A stretch of DNA of 39,207 nucleotides from Candidatus Cloacimonadota bacterium (GTDB lineage Bacteria; Cloacimonadota; Cloacimonadia; Cloacimonadales; JAQVBK01), in contig JAQVBK010000003.1 in the NCBI GenBank assembly GCA_028690365.1, positions 1 through 39,207 of the forward strand, read 5' to 3'. The stretch's first letter is position 1, and each line of letters starts with the position of its first letter. The position numbers were made by a program, and so were the translations under genes. Positions 7,206 through 38,726 of this stretch are shown here, in pieces. Under the pieces are notes generated by a model, which had not been told where the DNA came from, did not search any database, and saw only the letters and a list, made by a program, of their open reading frames with translations.

Positions 7206-8567
7206 ATGAACATCGAAAGCAAAACCAATATGAGACTATTACCACAGGAACCTAATGCTGAAGCAGCAGTTTTGTCTGCAATGCTGATAGATGGTTTTGC
7301 GGTTGCAAAAGTTATAGAACTCTTGGAAGAGAAGCATTTCTATAAGAAACAACATAGATTGATCTTTAGATGTATGCGTCAATTATTTGTAGAGAATACC
7401 GAAATTGATATTATTACTGTTATAGACCGACTCAACAGAGAAAATATTCTCGAAGAAATAGGTGGAACAACTTATCTGAATGAATTGATTGATATAGTAA
7501 TGAGTGGCTCAAATGTTGAGTATCATGCAAATATCGTATTGGAAAAAGCATTATTGCGGGAATTGATACAAACCTCAAATATAATTATTGAATCTGCTTA
7601 TAATTCAGATCTGCCTGTTAAGGAAATTGTTGATAATGCTGAACAGATGATTTTTAAAATTGCTGAAAGACCAAATCACAAATCTTTTATAAAAATTAGC
7701 GATATCCTGGTAGAGACCCTAAATAGTATTGAAAAGATTGCTACTACCAAAACTGTTGTTAACGGCGTTAGAACTGGTTTTGATGATTTGGATAGAATAA
7801 CTGGAGGATTCAGACCAGGGCAGTTTATAGTTCTAGCTGCAAGACCTGCTATGGGGAAAACTGCTTTTGCTTTAAATATTGCGTTCAATGCTTCAATGTA
7901 TCAGAATCTGAAAGTCGCCATATTCACTATGGAAATGGAAAATGAAGAGATCTTGCTCAGAATTATCAGTAGCGCATCTGAGGTGAATATGGATGTGCTC
8001 CATAAAGGCTATGGCATGGATGAGCAGAAGCTTATAAGAATTGCTCAGGTAGCTGAAGCTCTTAATGATAAAGATATTTACATTGATGATATGGGATCTA
8101 ATACACTTCTTGATGTCAGAGCAAAAAGCAGAAGACTCCAGGCAAAGATCGGTGGTCTTGACCTTATAATCATAGATTATTTACAGCTGATGTCTTCTGG
8201 TTTCAGAGCTGACAACAGACAACAGGAGATATCAGATATTTCCAGATCTTTGAAGGTTCTGGCAAAGGAATTAGGATGTCCGATTATCGGGTTATCTCAA
8301 CTTAATCGTTCTCTGGAAAATCGCGATGACAAACGACCCAAGCTTGCTGATTTGCGTGAATCAGGAGCTATTGAGCAGGATGCAGATATGGTTATGTTTA
8401 TTTATCGTGATGATTATTACAATAAAGAGTCTGACAAAGAAGGAATGGCTGAAGTAATTATCGGAAAAAACAGACATGGACCAACTGCAACTATTGAATT
8501 GGTCTTTATAAAACCGCTTACTCAATTCAGATCGAAAAGTTATGAAGTAAGCCATGTGGAAGAATAA
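7206..8567 (+). CDS. dnaB: Replicative DNA helicase
   Basis: LPQEPNAEAAVLSAML; GFDDLDRITGGFRPGQFIVLAARPAMGKTAFALNIA; IIDYLQLMSS; DLRESGAIEQDADMVMFIYRDDYY. Confidence 0.95.
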   Translation: MNIESKTNMRLLPQEPNAEAAVLSAMLIDGFAVAKVIELLEEKHFYKKQHRLIFRCMRQLFVENTEIDIITVIDRLNRENILEEIGGTTYLNELIDIVMSGSNVEYHANIVLEKALLRELIQTSNIIIESAYNSDLPVKEIVDNAEQMIFKIAERPNHKSFIKISDILVETLNSIEKIATTKTVVNGVRTGFDDLDRITGGFRPGQFIVLAARPAMGKTAFALNIAFNASMYQNLKVAIFTMEMENEEILLRIISSASEVNMDVLHKGYGMDEQKLIRIAQVAEALNDKDIYIDDMGSNTLLDVRAKSRRLQAKIGGLDLIIIDYLQLMSSGFRADNRQQEISDISRSLKVLAKELGCPIIGLSQLNRSLENRDDKRPKLADLRESGAIEQDADMVMFIYRDDYYNKESDKEGMAEVIIGKNRHGPTATIELVFIKPLTQFRSKSYEVSHVEE

Positions 8568-8593
8568 TAGCAAAAACAGATATTGAGAGAAAT

Positions 8594-30260: not shown

Positions 30261-32102
30261 ATGTTCAAAAGATACCTTACATTGCTTATTTTAATATCAA
30301 TTGCTGTTTCTATTAACGCTCAGATGGCTGCCAACCGTATCAAACAACTAAAAAATTCTGAAAACATTGTCTATGGAGAAGCAACTGCTTCTACCTTCAG
30401 GGAAGCTGATAATCAAGCGCTGAGAAATCTGGTGAGTCAGATATCTGTAACTGTTGAGCATCAGTTTGAAGATATTATTACAGAATCCCAGGGCAATGTC
30501 AGAGAATATTCCCAAAGCGTACTGCACACATACTGCAATACAACCCTTAACAATGCCCGTTCCATTGTAGATGAAGAGAGTTATGCTCCTCAAATATACG
30601 TCATCCGTTATCTCGAAGTGGAAGATTTGAATGAACTTTTCTCTGCCCGTAAAAATAAAATCCTGACCCTGGTTCGGGAAGGGATACAGGCTGAAAATGA
30701 ACTGCGTATAGCCGATGCCCTCCGTAATTACTACTGGGCTTTTCGACTGTTGCGTACTCATCCCGATAATCAGAAAATTACTTTCAATTTTGACAGCAGG
30801 AACGAACTTGTTCTCTATCCTGCTTTGTATAATCGCATTCTCAGAGTATTCAGTTTACTCAAGATTGACCTGAAGAAAATTGAAGTGAATAAGGAAGAGA
30901 ACTTCAAAGAGTATTATCTCGATATCGCATACGGTAACGATAGCAAACCGGTACAAAATCTGACCTTTCGCTACCATGACGGCTATGGTTACTCCAAACC
31001 CCAGAATATAAGAGATGGATTAGGTTATACGGAATTGCACGCTGAAGCTGCCAGATCTCTTAACAGACTCAGAGTTACGGTGGAATATGAGTTTATTAAC
31101 CATATTACCGATAAAGAAATCCGCCAGGTGATGGAAGATATCCCCCCTTATTACTTTATGGAAAACAATTATCAGATTGCCCTGGATAATTGCCCTGAGC
31201 AGGAAGCTCCCCTCACTCATGAGATAAAAAGCAACACAGTTTCTGATGATATTTCTGCTGAGGAAATGAATAATTACCTCGATATCATTAAGAAAATTAT
31301 AAAAGCCATAGAAATCAAAGATTACAACTCGGTTGAGAAATATTTCACTGTCAATGGCTGGGAAACTTTTACCGGAATCGTTAAATACGGCAATGCTGTT
31401 GTGTTGTGCGAAGAGATGAACCTCACTTTTGCCAGACTGCAGGACGAGGTCATCGCCCGGGATATTCTGATGAAATTCTCCTTTGATACCAACAAAGAGG
31501 AGTTCACCGAAAAAGTTGTCTTTACCTTCCGGGATAAGAAGGTAGAGTCGCTCTCCTTTGCCCTTAGTGATGCTGCAGTAAACGATATTATGAACCGACC
31601 GGAACAATATGCCTCCCTGGCAGAAAAACTACAGATAATACAGTTTATGGAAACTTATAAATCAGCTTATTGCCTGAAAAGACTTGATTTTATTCAGTCC
31701 ATCTTCTCTGACGATGCCCTTATTATCATCGGACAGATTATGGAAAAAGACCCGGAGGTTGATGTGGAAGGACTCATCAGCAGAATAAGCGCTGACAATG
31801 TCCGTTACTTCAGAAAGACTAAAACAGAGTATGTTGAGCATCTCAGTAAAGTATTCCAATCCCAGGAAGTAATTAATATCCGTTTTGAGGATAATATCCT
31901 GCAAAGTGTGCAGCAGGGTGGCAGAATTTTTGGTATTCAGATTGCTCAGTATTACTACTCCACCAATTATGCCGATAAAGGTTACCTTTTTCTGATGTTT
32001 GATCTGACCGACTCTCAGAAACCCCGCATTTTGGTGCGCTCCTGGCAGCCGGAGAAAAATGCCGACGGATCCATCATCGGACTGACGGATTTTGAGTTCT
32101 AA
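30261..32102 (+). CDS. Secreted protein with N-terminal LPP20/FlgT-like domain
   Basis: Signal peptide LTLLILISIAVSINAQ; VYGEATASTFREADNQALRNLVSQISVTVEHQFEDI; SD cggagg upstream; last 40 codons duplicated at 32579-32707. Confidence 0.75.
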   Translation: MFKRYLTLLILISIAVSINAQMAANRIKQLKNSENIVYGEATASTFREADNQALRNLVSQISVTVEHQFEDIITESQGNVREYSQSVLHTYCNTTLNNARSIVDEESYAPQIYVIRYLEVEDLNELFSARKNKILTLVREGIQAENELRIADALRNYYWAFRLLRTHPDNQKITFNFDSRNELVLYPALYNRILRVFSLLKIDLKKIEVNKEENFKEYYLDIAYGNDSKPVQNLTFRYHDGYGYSKPQNIRDGLGYTELHAEAARSLNRLRVTVEYEFINHITDKEIRQVMEDIPPYYFMENNYQIALDNCPEQEAPLTHEIKSNTVSDDISAEEMNNYLDIIKKIIKAIEIKDYNSVEKYFTVNGWETFTGIVKYGNAVVLCEEMNLTFARLQDEVIARDILMKFSFDTNKEEFTEKVVFTFRDKKVESLSFALSDAAVNDIMNRPEQYASLAEKLQIIQFMETYKSAYCLKRLDFIQSIFSDDALIIIGQIMEKDPEVDVEGLISRISADNVRYFRKTKTEYVEHLSKVFQSQEVINIRFEDNILQSVQQGGRIFGIQIAQYYYSTNYADKGYLFLMFDLTDSQKPRILVRSWQPEKNADGSIIGLTDFEF

Positions 32103-32106
32103 GGAG
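31978..32106 (+). repeat. 129-bp direct repeat, copy 1 (3' end of the 30261 CDS)
   Basis: aaggttacctttttctgatg...ttttgagttctaaggag; 2 mismatches to copy 2 by hand alignment. Confidence 0.97.
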
Positions 32107-32245: not shown

Positions 32246-32493
32246 GTCTTCGCCTGACACAGCCCTAAATCATTTAAAGGCAACCTTCCGTCAAAAGCCG
32301 GACACGGCACCTAAATCCTCTACGTCAGTAGCCGCACTAAAGTCCTATCAAGGAGAAGACTTTAAATCACTAAGAACAACCTCACCCAACCTCTCCTATC
32401 AAGGAGAGGAGCTTCATCTCCCCTTCTCCTCGGTAGGAGCCGTGACAGGCGACTGACTGGAAGGGGTAGGACGGGGCTGTGTTCGGCGAAGAC
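32246..32493. repeat. Structured intergenic element bounded by 20-nt imperfect inverted repeats
   Basis: GTCTTCGCCTGACACAGCCC (32246-32265) versus GGGCTGTGTTCGGCGAAGAC (32474-32493), 18/20 complementary; internal hairpins TAAAGTC/GACTTTA, CTCTCC/GGAGAG, CTCCT/AGGAG. Confidence 0.75.
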
Positions 32494-32578: not shown

Positions 32579-32707
32579 AAGGTTACCTTTTTCTGATGTT
32601 TGATCTGCCCGACTCTCAGAAACCCCGCATTTTGGTGCGCTCCTGGCAGCCGGAGAAAAATGCCGACGGATCCATCATCGGACTGACGGATTTTGAGTTT
32701 TAAGGAG
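32579..32707 (+). pseudogene. 129-bp direct repeat, copy 2 (orphan C-terminal 40 codons of the 30261-type gene)
   Basis: Still reads GYLFLMFDLPDSQKPRILVRSWQPEKNADGSIIGLTDFEF*; only ACC>CCC and TTC>TTT differ. Confidence 0.9.
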
Positions 32708-32763: not shown

Positions 32764-33363
32764 CTACTTGATTTTTTTGTTAATAGATTCTATGTTATCA
32801 GCAATTTTTTTTATATTAGTATCAATATCTTCAGGAGTATTCAAAGAACATACATGTCTCAAGTATGTTAGATCTAAAATTACGCTTTCAACAAATTTTC
32901 TTTTTTTAAACTTATAACTTATACTGATTTCAAATTTATCACTTATCTCATTAGGGTTTTCTTTATATCGATATAAACCAGAATCAAAAAAAGTTTTTAT
33001 AATTTGATTAGGAGAAACTCCTGATAAAGATATTTCTCCCTTATCTGATATAATGCTTGGAGTATTTCTTTTTTCAGAACATATAGAGACTAATTTCGGC
33101 GTTGTTTTTATAATAACATTGTTTGCTGTCCTATTCCCCGTATTTCTTATTACAATAAAGAAATTTTTTACTTTCTTTGATGGTTCAATGGAGAAACTAA
33201 TAAATGGACGATTCTGTTCATTTATTGAATTGATAGTTGCTTTTAGGACAATTGCAGAAATACAGACACCAATAAATGATAAAACAGGATTCAATAATTC
33301 GATTAATTGTATTGAATCCCAAAATAGTCTGATATTTATAGCTATTAATCCAAACAAATCCAT
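32764..33363 (-). CDS. Small membrane-anchored protein of unknown function, second gene of the HEPN cassette
   Basis: N-terminal TM (LLNPVLSFIGVCISAIVLKATI) then beta-rich domain (FFIVIRNTGNRTANNVIIKTTP); SD aaggag before ATG at 33363. Confidence 0.7.
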   Translation of the reverse strand: MDLFGLIAINIRLFWDSIQLIELLNPVLSFIGVCISAIVLKATINSINEQNRPFISFSIEPSKKVKNFFIVIRNTGNRTANNVIIKTTPKLVSICSEKRNTPSIISDKGEISLSGVSPNQIIKTFFDSGLYRYKENPNEISDKFEISISYKFKKRKFVESVILDLTYLRHVCSLNTPEDIDTNIKKIADNIESINKKIK

Positions 33364-33423
33364 AATTCTCCTTAATATGAGCGATAATGATATCGACTGA
33401 CCATCTTCAGAAAGAAGATCGTA

Positions 33424-34503
33424 TTAAGTGATTTCAACTTTTTTCGTTATTAGTAATTGTTCAACCATATACTTAATAAGTCTAATGTCATTTCTTATTA
33501 AACCATAATTTTCTTCGTTTGATTCAATTCTCTTTTCTTTAGATTTCGAATGAACAATAGAATTTCGTATATCATAAAATCTTATAGCGATTTTATCTAA
33601 AGAAATACTATCAGACATTATGATCTCCTTACTTGAGATTTTTTTAAATAATTTTTTAAAGTAATAATTATGTAATAATCTATTAGTTTTTATATAATTA
33701 AGGACATCAGACTTTATTAAACATCTATTAAAAACGAATTTTAGGTCTTCCAGTTCACCACCATTTGTCTTCCTCTTTGAAAAAATACTAAGAAACTTAT
33801 CTCTAATATCTAACAATTTAGTTTTTTTTCCTGAATTAGAATGTGAGAGCTTTCGCAATATTCGATATTCAGGGAAGTAATATTCAAAGCAGTGATAATA
33901 CTGCAAATATTGATAAAATGGCAGATTACTACTCATGTTTGCTTTTAAATAATATTTTAATGGTTCAATGTCATATGTATGATCAATCTTAGGCAAACGA
34001 GCACTGCATTGCATCGCAAATTCAATATCATAAAGTTCTGACCAGTTATTAATGGTTCTTGGCTGATCAGTTAGAAGATCTAGATCAATATGCAATTTGC
34101 AGGATATTGAGAAAAGAACAGATAACCCAAATTTTGATAAATTTTCAAAAGCTTCTTGATGAGAACTAATATCAGCATCTGAAATAATTAAAGTAAATAT
34201 GTCACTTTTTAAAGAAAGAATTGAATGTTTGTATTCTAAAAGCTTTATAAAAGCTTTTGAGCAATATCCAATAGATAATGTTACTCCAAATGAGTTATCT
34301 ATGGTATTCATAAGAGGAGGTGAATTGTTCAATTCACCTTCATCAGAATATGATGGATCAAAATTTGAAATGTAATGGCAAAGATTTTCATATTCTATCT
34401 CATTTAACCCAGATAATTGACACTCTATTTTTCTCTTATTAAGTGAATAACCCGCTTCGTATCCTTTTAGTAATTCGTATTCAAGAAGCTCACTATTTAT
34501 CAA
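33424..34503 (-). CDS. Uncharacterised protein with putative C-terminal HEPN RNase-like motif
   Basis: FYDIRNSIVHSKSKEKR contains R-X4-H; TTG start at 34503 preceded by caggagg. Confidence 0.65.
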   Translation of the reverse strand: MINSELLEYELLKGYEAGYSLNKRKIECQLSGLNEIEYENLCHYISNFDPSYSDEGELNNSPPLMNTIDNSFGVTLSIGYCSKAFIKLLEYKHSILSLKSDIFTLIISDADISSHQEAFENLSKFGLSVLFSISCKLHIDLDLLTDQPRTINNWSELYDIEFAMQCSARLPKIDHTYDIEPLKYYLKANMSSNLPFYQYLQYYHCFEYYFPEYRILRKLSHSNSGKKTKLLDIRDKFLSIFSKRKTNGGELEDLKFVFNRCLIKSDVLNYIKTNRLLHNYYFKKLFKKISSKEIIMSDSISLDKIAIRFYDIRNSIVHSKSKEKRIESNEENYGLIRNDIRLIKYMVEQLLITKKVEIT

Positions 34504-34928
34504 GTCTTCCTCCTGTGATTTATGAAAAAATCTATACTCCTTTTTTTTTAACAGAAGTAATATTCATAATCTCTATTTATATCTATAGTAATATTCTTTC
34601 CCATAAGATGAGTTTTTCTTTAATCATTTATATCAAATTTAACGTTACAATTATATGATGCATTTAGCTTATTCATGCCTTATTCCATTTTTCAAAAAGC
34701 ACTTAATGTTCTTCAATTGGACTAACTATGTGCATTTTAAATATTAATGAACTTAAAAAAATTCGACTAACCCATCCTTCTACCTCATCCCTCCACTACT
34801 TCATAAAAACACTACCAAATGCAAAATCCGTAATAATTCTGTCAAATCAAAGTTCTGATCCTAACTTTTCAAATGAGAAGACTTCCTTATCTTCTGTGAT
34901 ATATCTTACAAGATATCAAATATAGTTG

Positions 34929-37900
34929 TTAATTATCCAAGTCCTTGACACATCGCACGGAGAAGCCGGCTGTCTTACTGCCGTGGCCGCGGTCCACCCG
35001 CGTACCGTCATAACTCAGCCTCCGGCCCCAGGCGTAGTCACTACCGCCCTCTGTAGAAGACCAAAAGCCACCGATGTAAGCCATGCTGTGGAAGCTCCCA
35101 TCGAGGCCGCTACGAAAACCACAGGGAAGGAAGTTGAAACCACTACTGCCAAACTCGGGGTCATTCTCCAGGTTCCCATCTGTCCACAAATCTGCCCTGC
35201 CGGCAAGTTTACTGCCTTCATTTGTGCCACGATTACCAGAATTATCTACTTCTTCCTGACTCATGCCAAGAGACATCTCCAATTCTTTTATATCATCATC
35301 TGAGGGCACTCTCCATCCCTCCGGAGCAAGATCTCTCGTGTCTACAACTGCATACCAATTGAAGAGATTGCCGTAAGTATCTGCATTAGATGGTGCGTTA
35401 TTGTAAACACAATAGGCTCCGCTTGTAGTACTTGTCCATGTACTATTATCTGTTACGTGAGGTATCTGGTCGCCATTACGATATCTCGTAACCTTCAGAT
35501 TCTCTGCCATCCAGTATTGGTTACCTATTCGTACAACTTGATAGATATTACCGTCAATATCAGTTACGTAATAGATTGGTATTTCAACAAGTAAAGAATC
35601 GGTAAAAGAAGATGAGTAAATATTGTAGAGGGCGTTTAATCTATAGGAATAGATAGTGTCTTGATCAAGATCAATATCAAAATAATTCATAATATCTGCG
35701 GGAATATTATCTGCCAGCAAGCTCCAATTGCCATTTTCAATTCTGCGCTCAAGAGAAAACCCATCTATACCCAATGAAGGATAATTCCATGTAAGAAGTA
35801 CATTGTTGTTATTTTGAATTACATAATTGAAATTTAGAGGAACAGGCAAGGTGTTATCAATTATTTCAGTTGTCAGCATTAAGCTATTATCGTCTTCATA
35901 ACAAGCATATATCCTGTACTGCAGATTCTGATTAACTTCCGCTTCTGAATCAGTCCAGGTGGAAACATTTTCTGCTACTGAGTCAAAAGGAATAATCCAG
36001 TCGCCATCTCCAACTTTCTTGTCGATTTTGAAGCCATGTTCGCCATTAATATCTTCTTGCCACTCAAGCTGAACGCTGTGAATATTGGGTTGAGAGTAAG
36101 TTAAATTAGTGGGAGCGGGAAGAATGTTATCAATTATTTCAGTTGTCAGCATAACACTATTTTCATCTTCATAATAAGCATATACCTTGTACTGTAGATT
36201 CTGATTCACTTCCGCTTCTGAATCAGTCCAGGTGGTTTCATTTTCATTTACAATGGCGTATGCTGTAATCCAATCATTTTCACCAACTTTCTTATCGATT
36301 TTAAAGCCATGTTCGCCATTAATATTTTCTTGCCACTCAAGCTGAATAGTATGAATGTTGGGGCGGGAATAGGTGAGATTGGAAGGAGGGGGAACGTTCA
36401 GATAGATATCTTCGGTAGGCAATAATTCGCTGAAATGATCTTCGTAATATGCGCTTACTTCGTATCTGATTGTGAGATTCAATCCCACATCTGTATCAAT
36501 CCAGGTAGTTGAATTTGCAGGTAGATATGCGTAACCGATGATAGTTTCCGCTCCTGTGTCATAGTCAATCACCTTATCAATTCTGAATCCGGTTTCTCCG
36601 TTTATGTTTTCCTGCCAACTGAGCCGGATGGAGTTAATAGAAATTACCTCATAACTTATATTTGTAGGGGATGGAATTGCGGTATCAATGGGAGGAGTGT
36701 TTACCGGAGAGCTGAGTTGAGTGCCCCAGCAGGAATAAATCCGATAATAAATTGTCTCATTAATTTCTGCTGAAGAATCAGTCCATGAGTAAATATTGGC
36801 ATCCAGCATTGCATAGTTTTCTTCCCACTCAGAGTTTTCGTTTTTTTTATCAATTCTAAAACTTTCTATACCTTCCATACTTTGCTGCCAACTAAGCTGA
36901 ACGCTGATTATATCAGGTCTGGAATAAACGAGGTTGGTGGGAGCGGGAATTGAATTATCAATCGCAACTGTATTTGAAAATAAACTATTGAATTCTTCGT
37001 AGTAACTATAAACTCTGTATTGCAAATTTTGACCGATCTCAGCGTTTGTATCTGTCCAGGTTGTCAGGTTAGCAGCAACAGAATCATACACAGTGAACCA
37101 GCTATCCGTACCAACTTTTTTATCGATTTTAAATCCTTGTTCACCGGTAATATCCTCTTGCCAATCAAGCCGGATATTATGGAGAGTAAGTCTTACATAA
37201 CTCAGTTCTTCAGGAGCAGGAATAGCATTGTCAATCAAAGGGGTAGTTCTATAATCCACCAGGTTGTTTCCGGAGAAGGGGGCAACTCTGTATCTAAGGT
37301 TCTGGTTTATCTCGGCATTTGAGTCTTCAAAGAATAGAGCGGTAGTAGTTCCCAACTCTTCCCAACTGCTATTGTCTACCTGCTTTTGAATCCGGAACCC
37401 TTCTTCTCCATTATTTATATCTGTCCAGGTCAACCGGATTTTATTGAGCAAAAGTTTTTCGAAGTTCAGATTCTGTACCGGTGAAAACGTAATTGTCTTT
37501 TGATTGCTTGCAGCGGGGGATAATTCAATCGGATCATTGCCATAAAAAGCGCAAACTCTATAATAAACTGTGTTGTAAGTATTCCTTATATTGATATTAT
37601 CAATATAACCAATTGTATTTTCAGCAGTGTGATGAATAACTGAGAAATTTTCACCATCAATTTTTCTTTCAATTCTGAATCCGTTTTCTCCATTGCTGTT
37701 ATCCTGCCAGTTCAGTGTGAAAGTGTGTACATTGTTTTGTGTTATGGTCAAATTGCCGGGTGCAGGGAAATCCATGGTAATTTGAGCTGAGAGTGGATTA
37801 CTCTCATTGTACTCAGTAACAGCCTTCACTCTGTATTCGTATTGGCGATTAGGCAGGATTGAGTCATCAAGAAATGAGGTTGTGTTGGGATTGAGGGTGG

Positions 37901-38726
37901 TGAGAATGGTGAAATCTCTTAACCCTCTGTCCCGAGAATTCGGGACATCTCCCTTGGAAAGGGAGACTCTGGATTCCCCATTCATAAGTTTACGGGGTGG
38001 AAGCTCTTCTATTCCACTCTGGGGGACAGAGGGGGTTATGGTCTTTTGATTTTCAGTTCTTCTATTATCCGGCGCATTCTTAACTCCCTGCCCCGATACG
38101 GCAGTTGCCGAACGGGTCGAGGAAGTCAAGTCTGCTTCAATATTGCCTTCGGTATTGTTTCGGGTTTCCTCTCCTTCTCCTATGCCGGAGAAGTATTTTC
38201 CTGTCTCCCTTCTCTCAATTACATATCCGGTTTCATAATCACAATCATGTTCCCAGCTCAGTGAAGCAGAATGAATAGTTTCCTGAATTATCGTGAGGTT
38301 CTCAATGGGATCAAATATGGTTTGGACATTGTTTTCCAGAGATGTCTTAGTGTGATTCTGGTCATTTCGACCGGTAACCCTGTAATAATAACGGTTTGTG
38401 GTAAGCAGTCCGGTGTCGGTAAATTCTGATTTATTAGCTTCAACTTCGGCATGGGGAAGGAAATGTTCATCAGAATCAGTTCTTCTCTCTATGAGATAGC
38501 TGCCCACTACTTTGCTATTCTCTTGCCATTGTAGTTTAACTGAAGAATCACTTAAAGCTGTGATGGATAATTCACCTGTCATGTTGCCCATATTATAGCT
38601 GGAATGATACGGACTGTTAGGCTCTTTCACATCGCAGGAGATAGCAAAGATTACTATCAATAGCAAAACGAGAGAATTGCACTTCAATGGATGATGTTTA
38701 ATATAAAAGTTATTTTTCGCTTTCAA
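34929..38726 (-). CDS. Giant surface lipoprotein: about 10 FnIII domains and a C-terminal FISUMP (Fibrobacter succinogenes major paralogous) domain
   Basis: Lipobox IFAISC; repeated LxWQExxxGExGFxIDKKV...NQNLQYRVYAYY; C-terminus DIDGNIYQVVRIGNQYWMAENLKVTRYRNGD...GWRVPSDDD...GFWSSTE...GFSVRCVKD. Confidence 0.9.
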   Translation of the reverse strand: MKAKNNFYIKHHPLKCNSLVLLLIVIFAISCDVKEPNSPYHSSYNMGNMTGELSITALSDSSVKLQWQENSKVVGSYLIERRTDSDEHFLPHAEVEANKSEFTDTGLLTTNRYYYRVTGRNDQNHTKTSLENNVQTIFDPIENLTIIQETIHSASLSWEHDCDYETGYVIERRETGKYFSGIGEGEETRNNTEGNIEADLTSSTRSATAVSGQGVKNAPDNRRTENQKTITPSVPQSGIEELPPRKLMNGESRVSLSKGDVPNSRDRGLRDFTILTTLNPNTTSFLDDSILPNRQYEYRVKAVTEYNESNPLSAQITMDFPAPGNLTITQNNVHTFTLNWQDNSNGENGFRIERKIDGENFSVIHHTAENTIGYIDNINIRNTYNTVYYRVCAFYGNDPIELSPAASNQKTITFSPVQNLNFEKLLLNKIRLTWTDINNGEEGFRIQKQVDNSSWEELGTTTALFFEDSNAEINQNLRYRVAPFSGNNLVDYRTTPLIDNAIPAPEELSYVRLTLHNIRLDWQEDITGEQGFKIDKKVGTDSWFTVYDSVAANLTTWTDTNAEIGQNLQYRVYSYYEEFNSLFSNTVAIDNSIPAPTNLVYSRPDIISVQLSWQQSMEGIESFRIDKKNENSEWEENYAMLDANIYSWTDSSAEINETIYYRIYSCWGTQLSSPVNTPPIDTAIPSPTNISYEVISINSIRLSWQENINGETGFRIDKVIDYDTGAETIIGYAYLPANSTTWIDTDVGLNLTIRYEVSAYYEDHFSELLPTEDIYLNVPPPSNLTYSRPNIHTIQLEWQENINGEHGFKIDKKVGENDWITAYAIVNENETTWTDSEAEVNQNLQYKVYAYYEDENSVMLTTEIIDNILPAPTNLTYSQPNIHSVQLEWQEDINGEHGFKIDKKVGDGDWIIPFDSVAENVSTWTDSEAEVNQNLQYRIYACYEDDNSLMLTTEIIDNTLPVPLNFNYVIQNNNNVLLTWNYPSLGIDGFSLERRIENGNWSLLADNIPADIMNYFDIDLDQDTIYSYRLNALYNIYSSSFTDSLLVEIPIYYVTDIDGNIYQVVRIGNQYWMAENLKVTRYRNGDQIPHVTDNSTWTSTTSGAYCVYNNAPSNADTYGNLFNWYAVVDTRDLAPEGWRVPSDDDIKELEMSLGMSQEEVDNSGNRGTNEGSKLAGRADLWTDGNLENDPEFGSSGFNFLPCGFRSGLDGSFHSMAYIGGFWSSTEGGSDYAWGRRLSYDGTRVDRGHGSKTAGFSVRCVKDLDN
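37915..38200. repeat. Structured repeat-like sequence apparently inserted in frame within the second FnIII domain
   Basis: Outer arms AACCCTCTGTCCC (37921-37933) / GGGACAGAGGGGGTT (38023-38037); internal palindromes GTCCCGA-gaat-TCGGGAC, CTCCCTT-gga-AAGGGAG, TGGAA...TTCCA; encodes roughly 80-90 non-FnIII residues. Confidence 0.65.

Follow-up and report, generated by a model that had tools for sequence, protein, structure and literature searches.

Locus organization

The window analyzed here is a complete 39-kb contig (39,207 nucleotides) of a 3.6-Mb Candidatus Cloacimonadota genome. At positions 32764-34503 it carries a cassette of two minus-strand genes, gene 1 followed by gene 2, which lie 60 bp apart (Table 1). 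The initial annotation of this stretch, made from the letters and their open reading frames, had described a co-directional pair with a gap of this size, and the two reading frames bear it out. We find no terminator-like site in the spacer between the genes.

Table 1. Coordinates of the cassette and adjoining features (positions in the window)
Feature	Position	Strand	Basis or remark
MITE-like repeat, ~250 bp	32246..32493		20-nt terminal inverted repeats GTCTTCGCCTGACACAGCCC, 90% complementary
Second copy of the 3' end of gene 30261-32102	32579..32707	+	Cassette boundary; 129 nt, 98% identical to 31978-32106
Gene 2	32764..33363	-	ORF, 199 aa, ATG start
Spacer, 60 bp, with Shine-Dalgarno AAGGAG ahead of the gene 2 ATG	33364..33423	-	Sequence
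Gene 1	33424..34503	-	ORF, 359 aa, TTG start; DzbB-family protein
HEPN-like C-terminal domain of gene 1, residues ~179-353	within 33424..34503	-	AlphaFold2 helical model
Predicted catalytic RX4H motif RNSIVH, residues 313-318	33550..33567	-	Conservation; alignment with ApeA-type HEPN
N-terminal alpha/beta region of gene 1, residues 1-179	33967..34503	-	AlphaFold2 model; poorly conserved
Shine-Dalgarno AGGAGG, 5 nt ahead of the gene 1 TTG	34504..34520	-	Sequence

The base composition of the cassette is extreme. Its G+C content is 27.1%, compared with 35.9 +/- 2.6% (lowest, 31.4%) for other 1740-bp segments, and the lowest-G+C segment of this size in the whole contig starts at 32711. The two genes share this composition, at 26-27% G+C each. 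The A+T-richness noted initially is therefore the contig extreme, and the hand count that had accompanied it (14 G+C in 60 nt at 33421-33480) is exact.

A direct duplication adjoins the cassette: the copies at 31978-32106 and 32579-32707 are separated by 472 bp, and the second abuts the A+T-rich stretch, as if an insertion event had copied the end of its target gene. The MITE-like repeat at 32246-32493 recurs in part, over 53 bp, on contig C373 of this genome. The recent duplication and structured repeat reported beside the cassette are thus both present, the one 129 nt long at 98% identity and the other bounded by terminal inverted repeats. Together with the foreign composition, they support the earlier impression of an acquired locus. 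From its sequence, the cassette looks foreign, and we take it to be real and acquired.

Ordinary genes and genes for secreted proteins surround the cassette in the window; by eye we recognize no further defence genes among the window's reading frames. The gene at 34929-38726 encodes a protein of 1265 aa in which fibronectin-type repeats are numerous (the repeat unit in the DNA is 273 nt long) and whose C-terminal region resembles, by eye, the Fibrobacter major paralogous (FISUMP) domain.

Gene 1 belongs to a sparse, mobile family

Scans of the two proteins singly against Pfam, NCBIfam and PADLOC return nothing above cut-off, a sequence search against solved structures gives no match, and relatives of either gene are not found in viral contigs. 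The identity of gene 1 emerges at the level of its family. Among 125 genomes of the phylum, relatives of gene 1 occur in two, including the window's own; the other is a same-class relative (G124, contig JAGXLO010000011.1), which has the nearest relative of gene 1 and lacks gene 2. Scanning 84,980 genomes with a profile, we find 14 loci of the family, in Bacillota, Pseudomonadota, Cyanobacteriota, Bacteroidota and Cloacimonadota, with 17-31% identity to the gene 1 protein (best about 31-33%). An HMM built from the 13 members outside Cloacimonadota, and hence blind to the phylum, recovers gene 1 from the window at 84 bits (E 7.8e-26), with the next reading frame at 2 bits.

The PADLOC profile for DzbB matches 14 of the 15 family members (best E 4.5e-17). 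In a genome search gene 1 itself scores 31.9 bits against this profile (E 1.2e-7), although hmmscan of gene 1 alone against PADLOC gives no match, so that the link comes from the family- and genome-level searches only. This profile evidence places gene 1 in the DzbB family. Dazbog is an anti-phage system of two proteins, DzbA and DzbB (Millman et al. 2022; PDLC03835 and PDLC03836 in PADLOC). Its activation by methylases has been reported (PMC12409349).

The neighborhoods of the homologues vary. In Jeotgalibacillus (L026), the homologue overlaps an upstream DzbA gene (E 3.7e-44), forming a complete Dazbog pair, and precedes genes for GmrSD_N, RiboL-PSP-HEPN and N6-methylase proteins. The Aquabacterium homologue (L024) comes after a GmrSD_N gene. 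One homologue is on a conjugative plasmid, one lies within a cluster of conjugation genes (L023), one adjoins hicBA (L020), one is near a Fic gene (L022), and several are solitary at their loci. This sparse spread, with plasmid, conjugation and defence-gene neighbors, is as expected of a mobile defence gene, in this case one that occurs mostly without DzbA. The association with defence proposed in the initial annotation is likewise supported by the DzbB membership of gene 1. At two loci (L030 and L031, near 7224-8585), from Clostridium asparagiforme and Anaerocolumna, closely related DzbB-family genes adjoin the same GMP-synthase-like gene, which suggests an insertion hot spot.

Several other names were considered and set aside. 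For MauJ, 14 of the 15 family members give a match (best E 5e-6), with the match in gene 1 limited to the helix bearing a YYHxxE motif, and the name implies no function. Matches to DUF11 and Srb fall below cut-off, and a phage match (H3) was dropped because it spans unrelated annotated frames.

An invariant RX4H motif in a helical domain

Gene 1 carries an exact R-X4-H motif, RNSIVH, as had been pointed out initially. In a protein of this length, chance alone would often produce an R-x4-H; here all 15 diverse homologues share R313, N314, V317 and H318 (R-N-x-x-V-H), which, together with E207, are among the nine invariant positions of the 15-protein alignment. By one criterion for HEPN domains, the arginine of Rx4-6H is followed by a polar residue, N, D or H (PMC3710099), and in gene 1 it is N. 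A second criterion is a conserved acidic residue, typically within Ex3[KR]. The acidic E207 is invariant in the family, but a K or R four residues on is absent, so that there is no Ex3[KR].

In an AlphaFold2 model of gene 1 (pLDDT 70, with most helices better), residues 179-353 are all-helical and RNSIVH sits at the end of a helix spanning residues 302-317. With this model, Foldseek returns no HEPN or other match (best E 0.33). The structure prediction that had been proposed as a check thus gives the motif a helix-end position in an all-helical domain, but no fold match to a solved HEPN protein.

Comparison of profiles adds to the picture. Aligned by hhalign with seven ApeA-type proteins, the gene 1 family gives a P of 4.8e-4 with the motifs in register. 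The HEPN_Apea profile touches four family members weakly, below the Pfam cut-off (best E 0.0014); against that cut-off of 24.4 bits, gene 1 scores 11.9 bits and its relative in G124 scores 21.2 bits (E 5e-4). Profiles for CARF_HEPN, RT-associated HEPN and Cas13 also match the family weakly, and the PD-T4-2_B profile weakly matches a single distant member.

Could R-N-x-x-V-H belong to a helical domain without nuclease activity, which binds a nucleic acid or nucleotide, for example, and does not cleave it? The negative Foldseek result and the sub-threshold HEPN_Apea matches point that way, whereas the position of the invariant R, N and H at the end of a helix, the agreement of several independent weak HEPN models and the in-register hhalign alignment speak against it, and we regard such a domain as improbable. 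It is much more probable, in our view, that gene 1 belongs to the HEPN superfamily: the motif, its helical context, the weak HEPN profile matches and the ApeA-type alignment give the HEPN-like identity suggested in the initial annotation good, if not final, support, short of proof by fold. The N-terminal residues 1-179 are a candidate sensor or regulatory part.

Gene 2 is a membrane-anchored protein with varied neighbors

Gene 2 had been described as a membrane-anchored, beta-rich partner, and this description holds. Hydropathy gives one N-terminal transmembrane (TM) segment at residues 26-44, and the AlphaFold2 model (mean pLDDT 78.8) places a 7-strand Ig-like domain after it, followed by a C-terminal helix. 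In members of the gene 2 family, K and R lie mostly after rather than before the TM segment; by the positive-inside rule, the Ig-like domain probably faces the cytoplasm. Its fold matches are generic Ig-like sandwiches (adaptin ears, TRAP, pilins), and we adopt no function from them. The Pfam, NCBIfam and PADLOC scans reveal no nucleotidyltransferase or other known antitoxin domain. Over residues 18-188, gene 2 matches PHROG 9607 (E 3e-11).

There are four strong relatives of gene 2 within the phylum. In G052, the relative lies between mod and res in a type III restriction-modification (R-M) operon, with a 17-bp overlap with res; the G042 relative lies in a type I R-M operon between hsdM, with a short ORF intervening, and hsdS/hsdR. 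The G070 relative neighbors the gene of a 480-aa protein (L015:3634-5076, minus strand), with a 90-aa ORF between them; this protein starts MIRVYFDWNVFSYLK and is PIN-like by eye, with no Pfam or PADLOC match. The fourth relative, in G055, is at a contig end. R-M operons thus hold two of the five copies in the phylum, a small sample. More distant relatives adjoin an integron-type integrase (L043) or stand single in cyanobacteria. A further phrog_9607 match (G540) was left unused, as it lies within a methyltransferase-like ORF among housekeeping genes. The company of R-M genes, a PIN-like protein and an integrase indicates that gene 2 has no fixed link with gene 1.

Are the two genes one module?

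The initial annotation had taken the two genes as a candidate defence or toxin module. That they form one conserved module is unproven, while the HEPN call was a good one: the pair is seen once among the loci examined, G124 carries gene 1 without gene 2, and relatives of gene 2 occur with type I and type III R-M systems. Any cooperation between gene 1 and gene 2 is therefore inferred.

Two independently acquired genes might simply have come to lie side by side, one a solo DzbB-type HEPN gene and the other an orphan membrane-protein gene from, or borrowed by, for example, an R-M system. Besides the single occurrence of the pair, this account draws on the gene 1 homologues that are solitary or have different neighbors, on the gene 2 relatives found without gene 1 (in R-M operons, near the integrase, in cyanobacteria), and on the 13 non-Cloacimonadota genomes with gene 1, in none of which (0/13) is a gene 2 relative detectable with the profile used. 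It fits less well with a shared strand, a 60-bp gap whose spacer lacks a terminator-like site, a Shine-Dalgarno sequence for each gene, and matching extreme composition. As the pairing was seen once, chance adjacency keeps an appreciable share of the probability, though we think it unlikely. Far less probable is a toxin-antitoxin pair, in which the HEPN protein would be a toxin neutralized by the membrane protein. HEPN domains are frequent toxins of such systems (PMC3710099) and the two-gene layout would suit one, but at 359 aa gene 1 is large and includes a separate N-terminal region, and relatives of either gene occur without the other. What decides the matter is gene 2, which has no antitoxin feature; with the pairing not conserved either, the toxin-antitoxin suggestion of the initial annotation finds no specific support. 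Judged by sequence, the locus is not a recognized toxin-antitoxin pair.

The reading we somewhat favor over these is a horizontally acquired anti-phage cassette, composed of a DzbB-family HEPN ribonuclease and a membrane-anchored accessory, gene 2. It is built on family membership, the motif, its helical context, composition and gene order, and it reaches by inference to ribonuclease activity, a trigger, tethering and defence in the source organism. During infection, the N-terminal half of gene 1 or its partner gene 2, where the sensing function would have to reside, would detect a phage cue. The cue would release RNA cleavage by the R313/H318 site of gene 1, normally as a HEPN dimer, and cleavage would stop the growth of the phage or of the cell. 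With its cytoplasmic Ig-like domain and C-terminal helix, gene 2 would regulate the nuclease at the inner membrane face or tether it there. The cassette is in this sense a plausible variant defence module, still unproven.

A broader idea concerns gene 2 itself, which may be a portable membrane-anchoring accessory recruited by unrelated nuclease systems to place or control a nuclease at the point of entry of phage DNA, the inner membrane. The recruiting systems would be type I R-M, type III R-M, DzbB-type HEPN proteins and perhaps the PIN-like protein. We offer this tentatively and consider it rather doubtful at present. Even so, gene 2 as a membrane accessory common to unrelated nuclease systems may be the most promising lead from the locus: an unnamed membrane protein within R-M operons is brought to notice, and, should it tether nucleases there, defences with nothing else in common would share a spatial component at the membrane. 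For gene 1, the analysis widens DzbB, an uncharacterized subunit of Dazbog, into a broad HEPN-like family that is found mostly without DzbA, and so provides a testable catalytic site for DzbB.

Comparison with known systems

Dazbog is defined by DzbA, a DUF262-type protein. The cassette resembles it in the match of the DzbB model to gene 1 and its family, and in the DzbA gene directly upstream of one member. It differs in that the neighbor here is a membrane-anchored Ig-like protein rather than a DzbA/DUF262 protein, and in that gene 1 is highly divergent with a shorter N-terminal region. No DzbA is found beside the cassette (gene 2 by PADLOC and Pfam, with no match above cut-off, and the other adjoining ORFs by eye), and in its absence the locus is not a Dazbog system. 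PD-T4-2 (a DUF262 protein plus HEPN) and GmrSD-type systems similarly recall the homologues at L024 and L026, where a DUF262-type gene is beside the HEPN-like gene, whereas the cassette has no adjoining DUF262 gene and the PD-T4-2_B match is confined to that one distant member.

Membrane-associated bacterial HEPN proteins (PMC3710099) share with the cassette a predicted cytoplasmic HEPN domain at the inner membrane; their TM helices are fused to the HEPN domain, while here the TM segment is on a separate gene product. For gene 2, the wider PHROG 9607 family shares the TM segment and the R-P, N-x-G and A positions; its Cloacimonadota branch is found inside R-M operons.

ApeA proteins (HEPN_Apea, PF18739) are similar to gene 1 in size (~330-480 aa), in having an N-terminal non-HEPN region and a C-terminal HEPN domain with RN-x3-H, and in aligning in register around the motif. 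They are nevertheless a separate family, and with its HEPN_Apea score under the Pfam cut-off the locus is not ApeA. A true HEPN_Apea gene (L072, G000:C282:7165-7578; 76.5 bits) is present elsewhere in this genome, on a contig of 8 kb.
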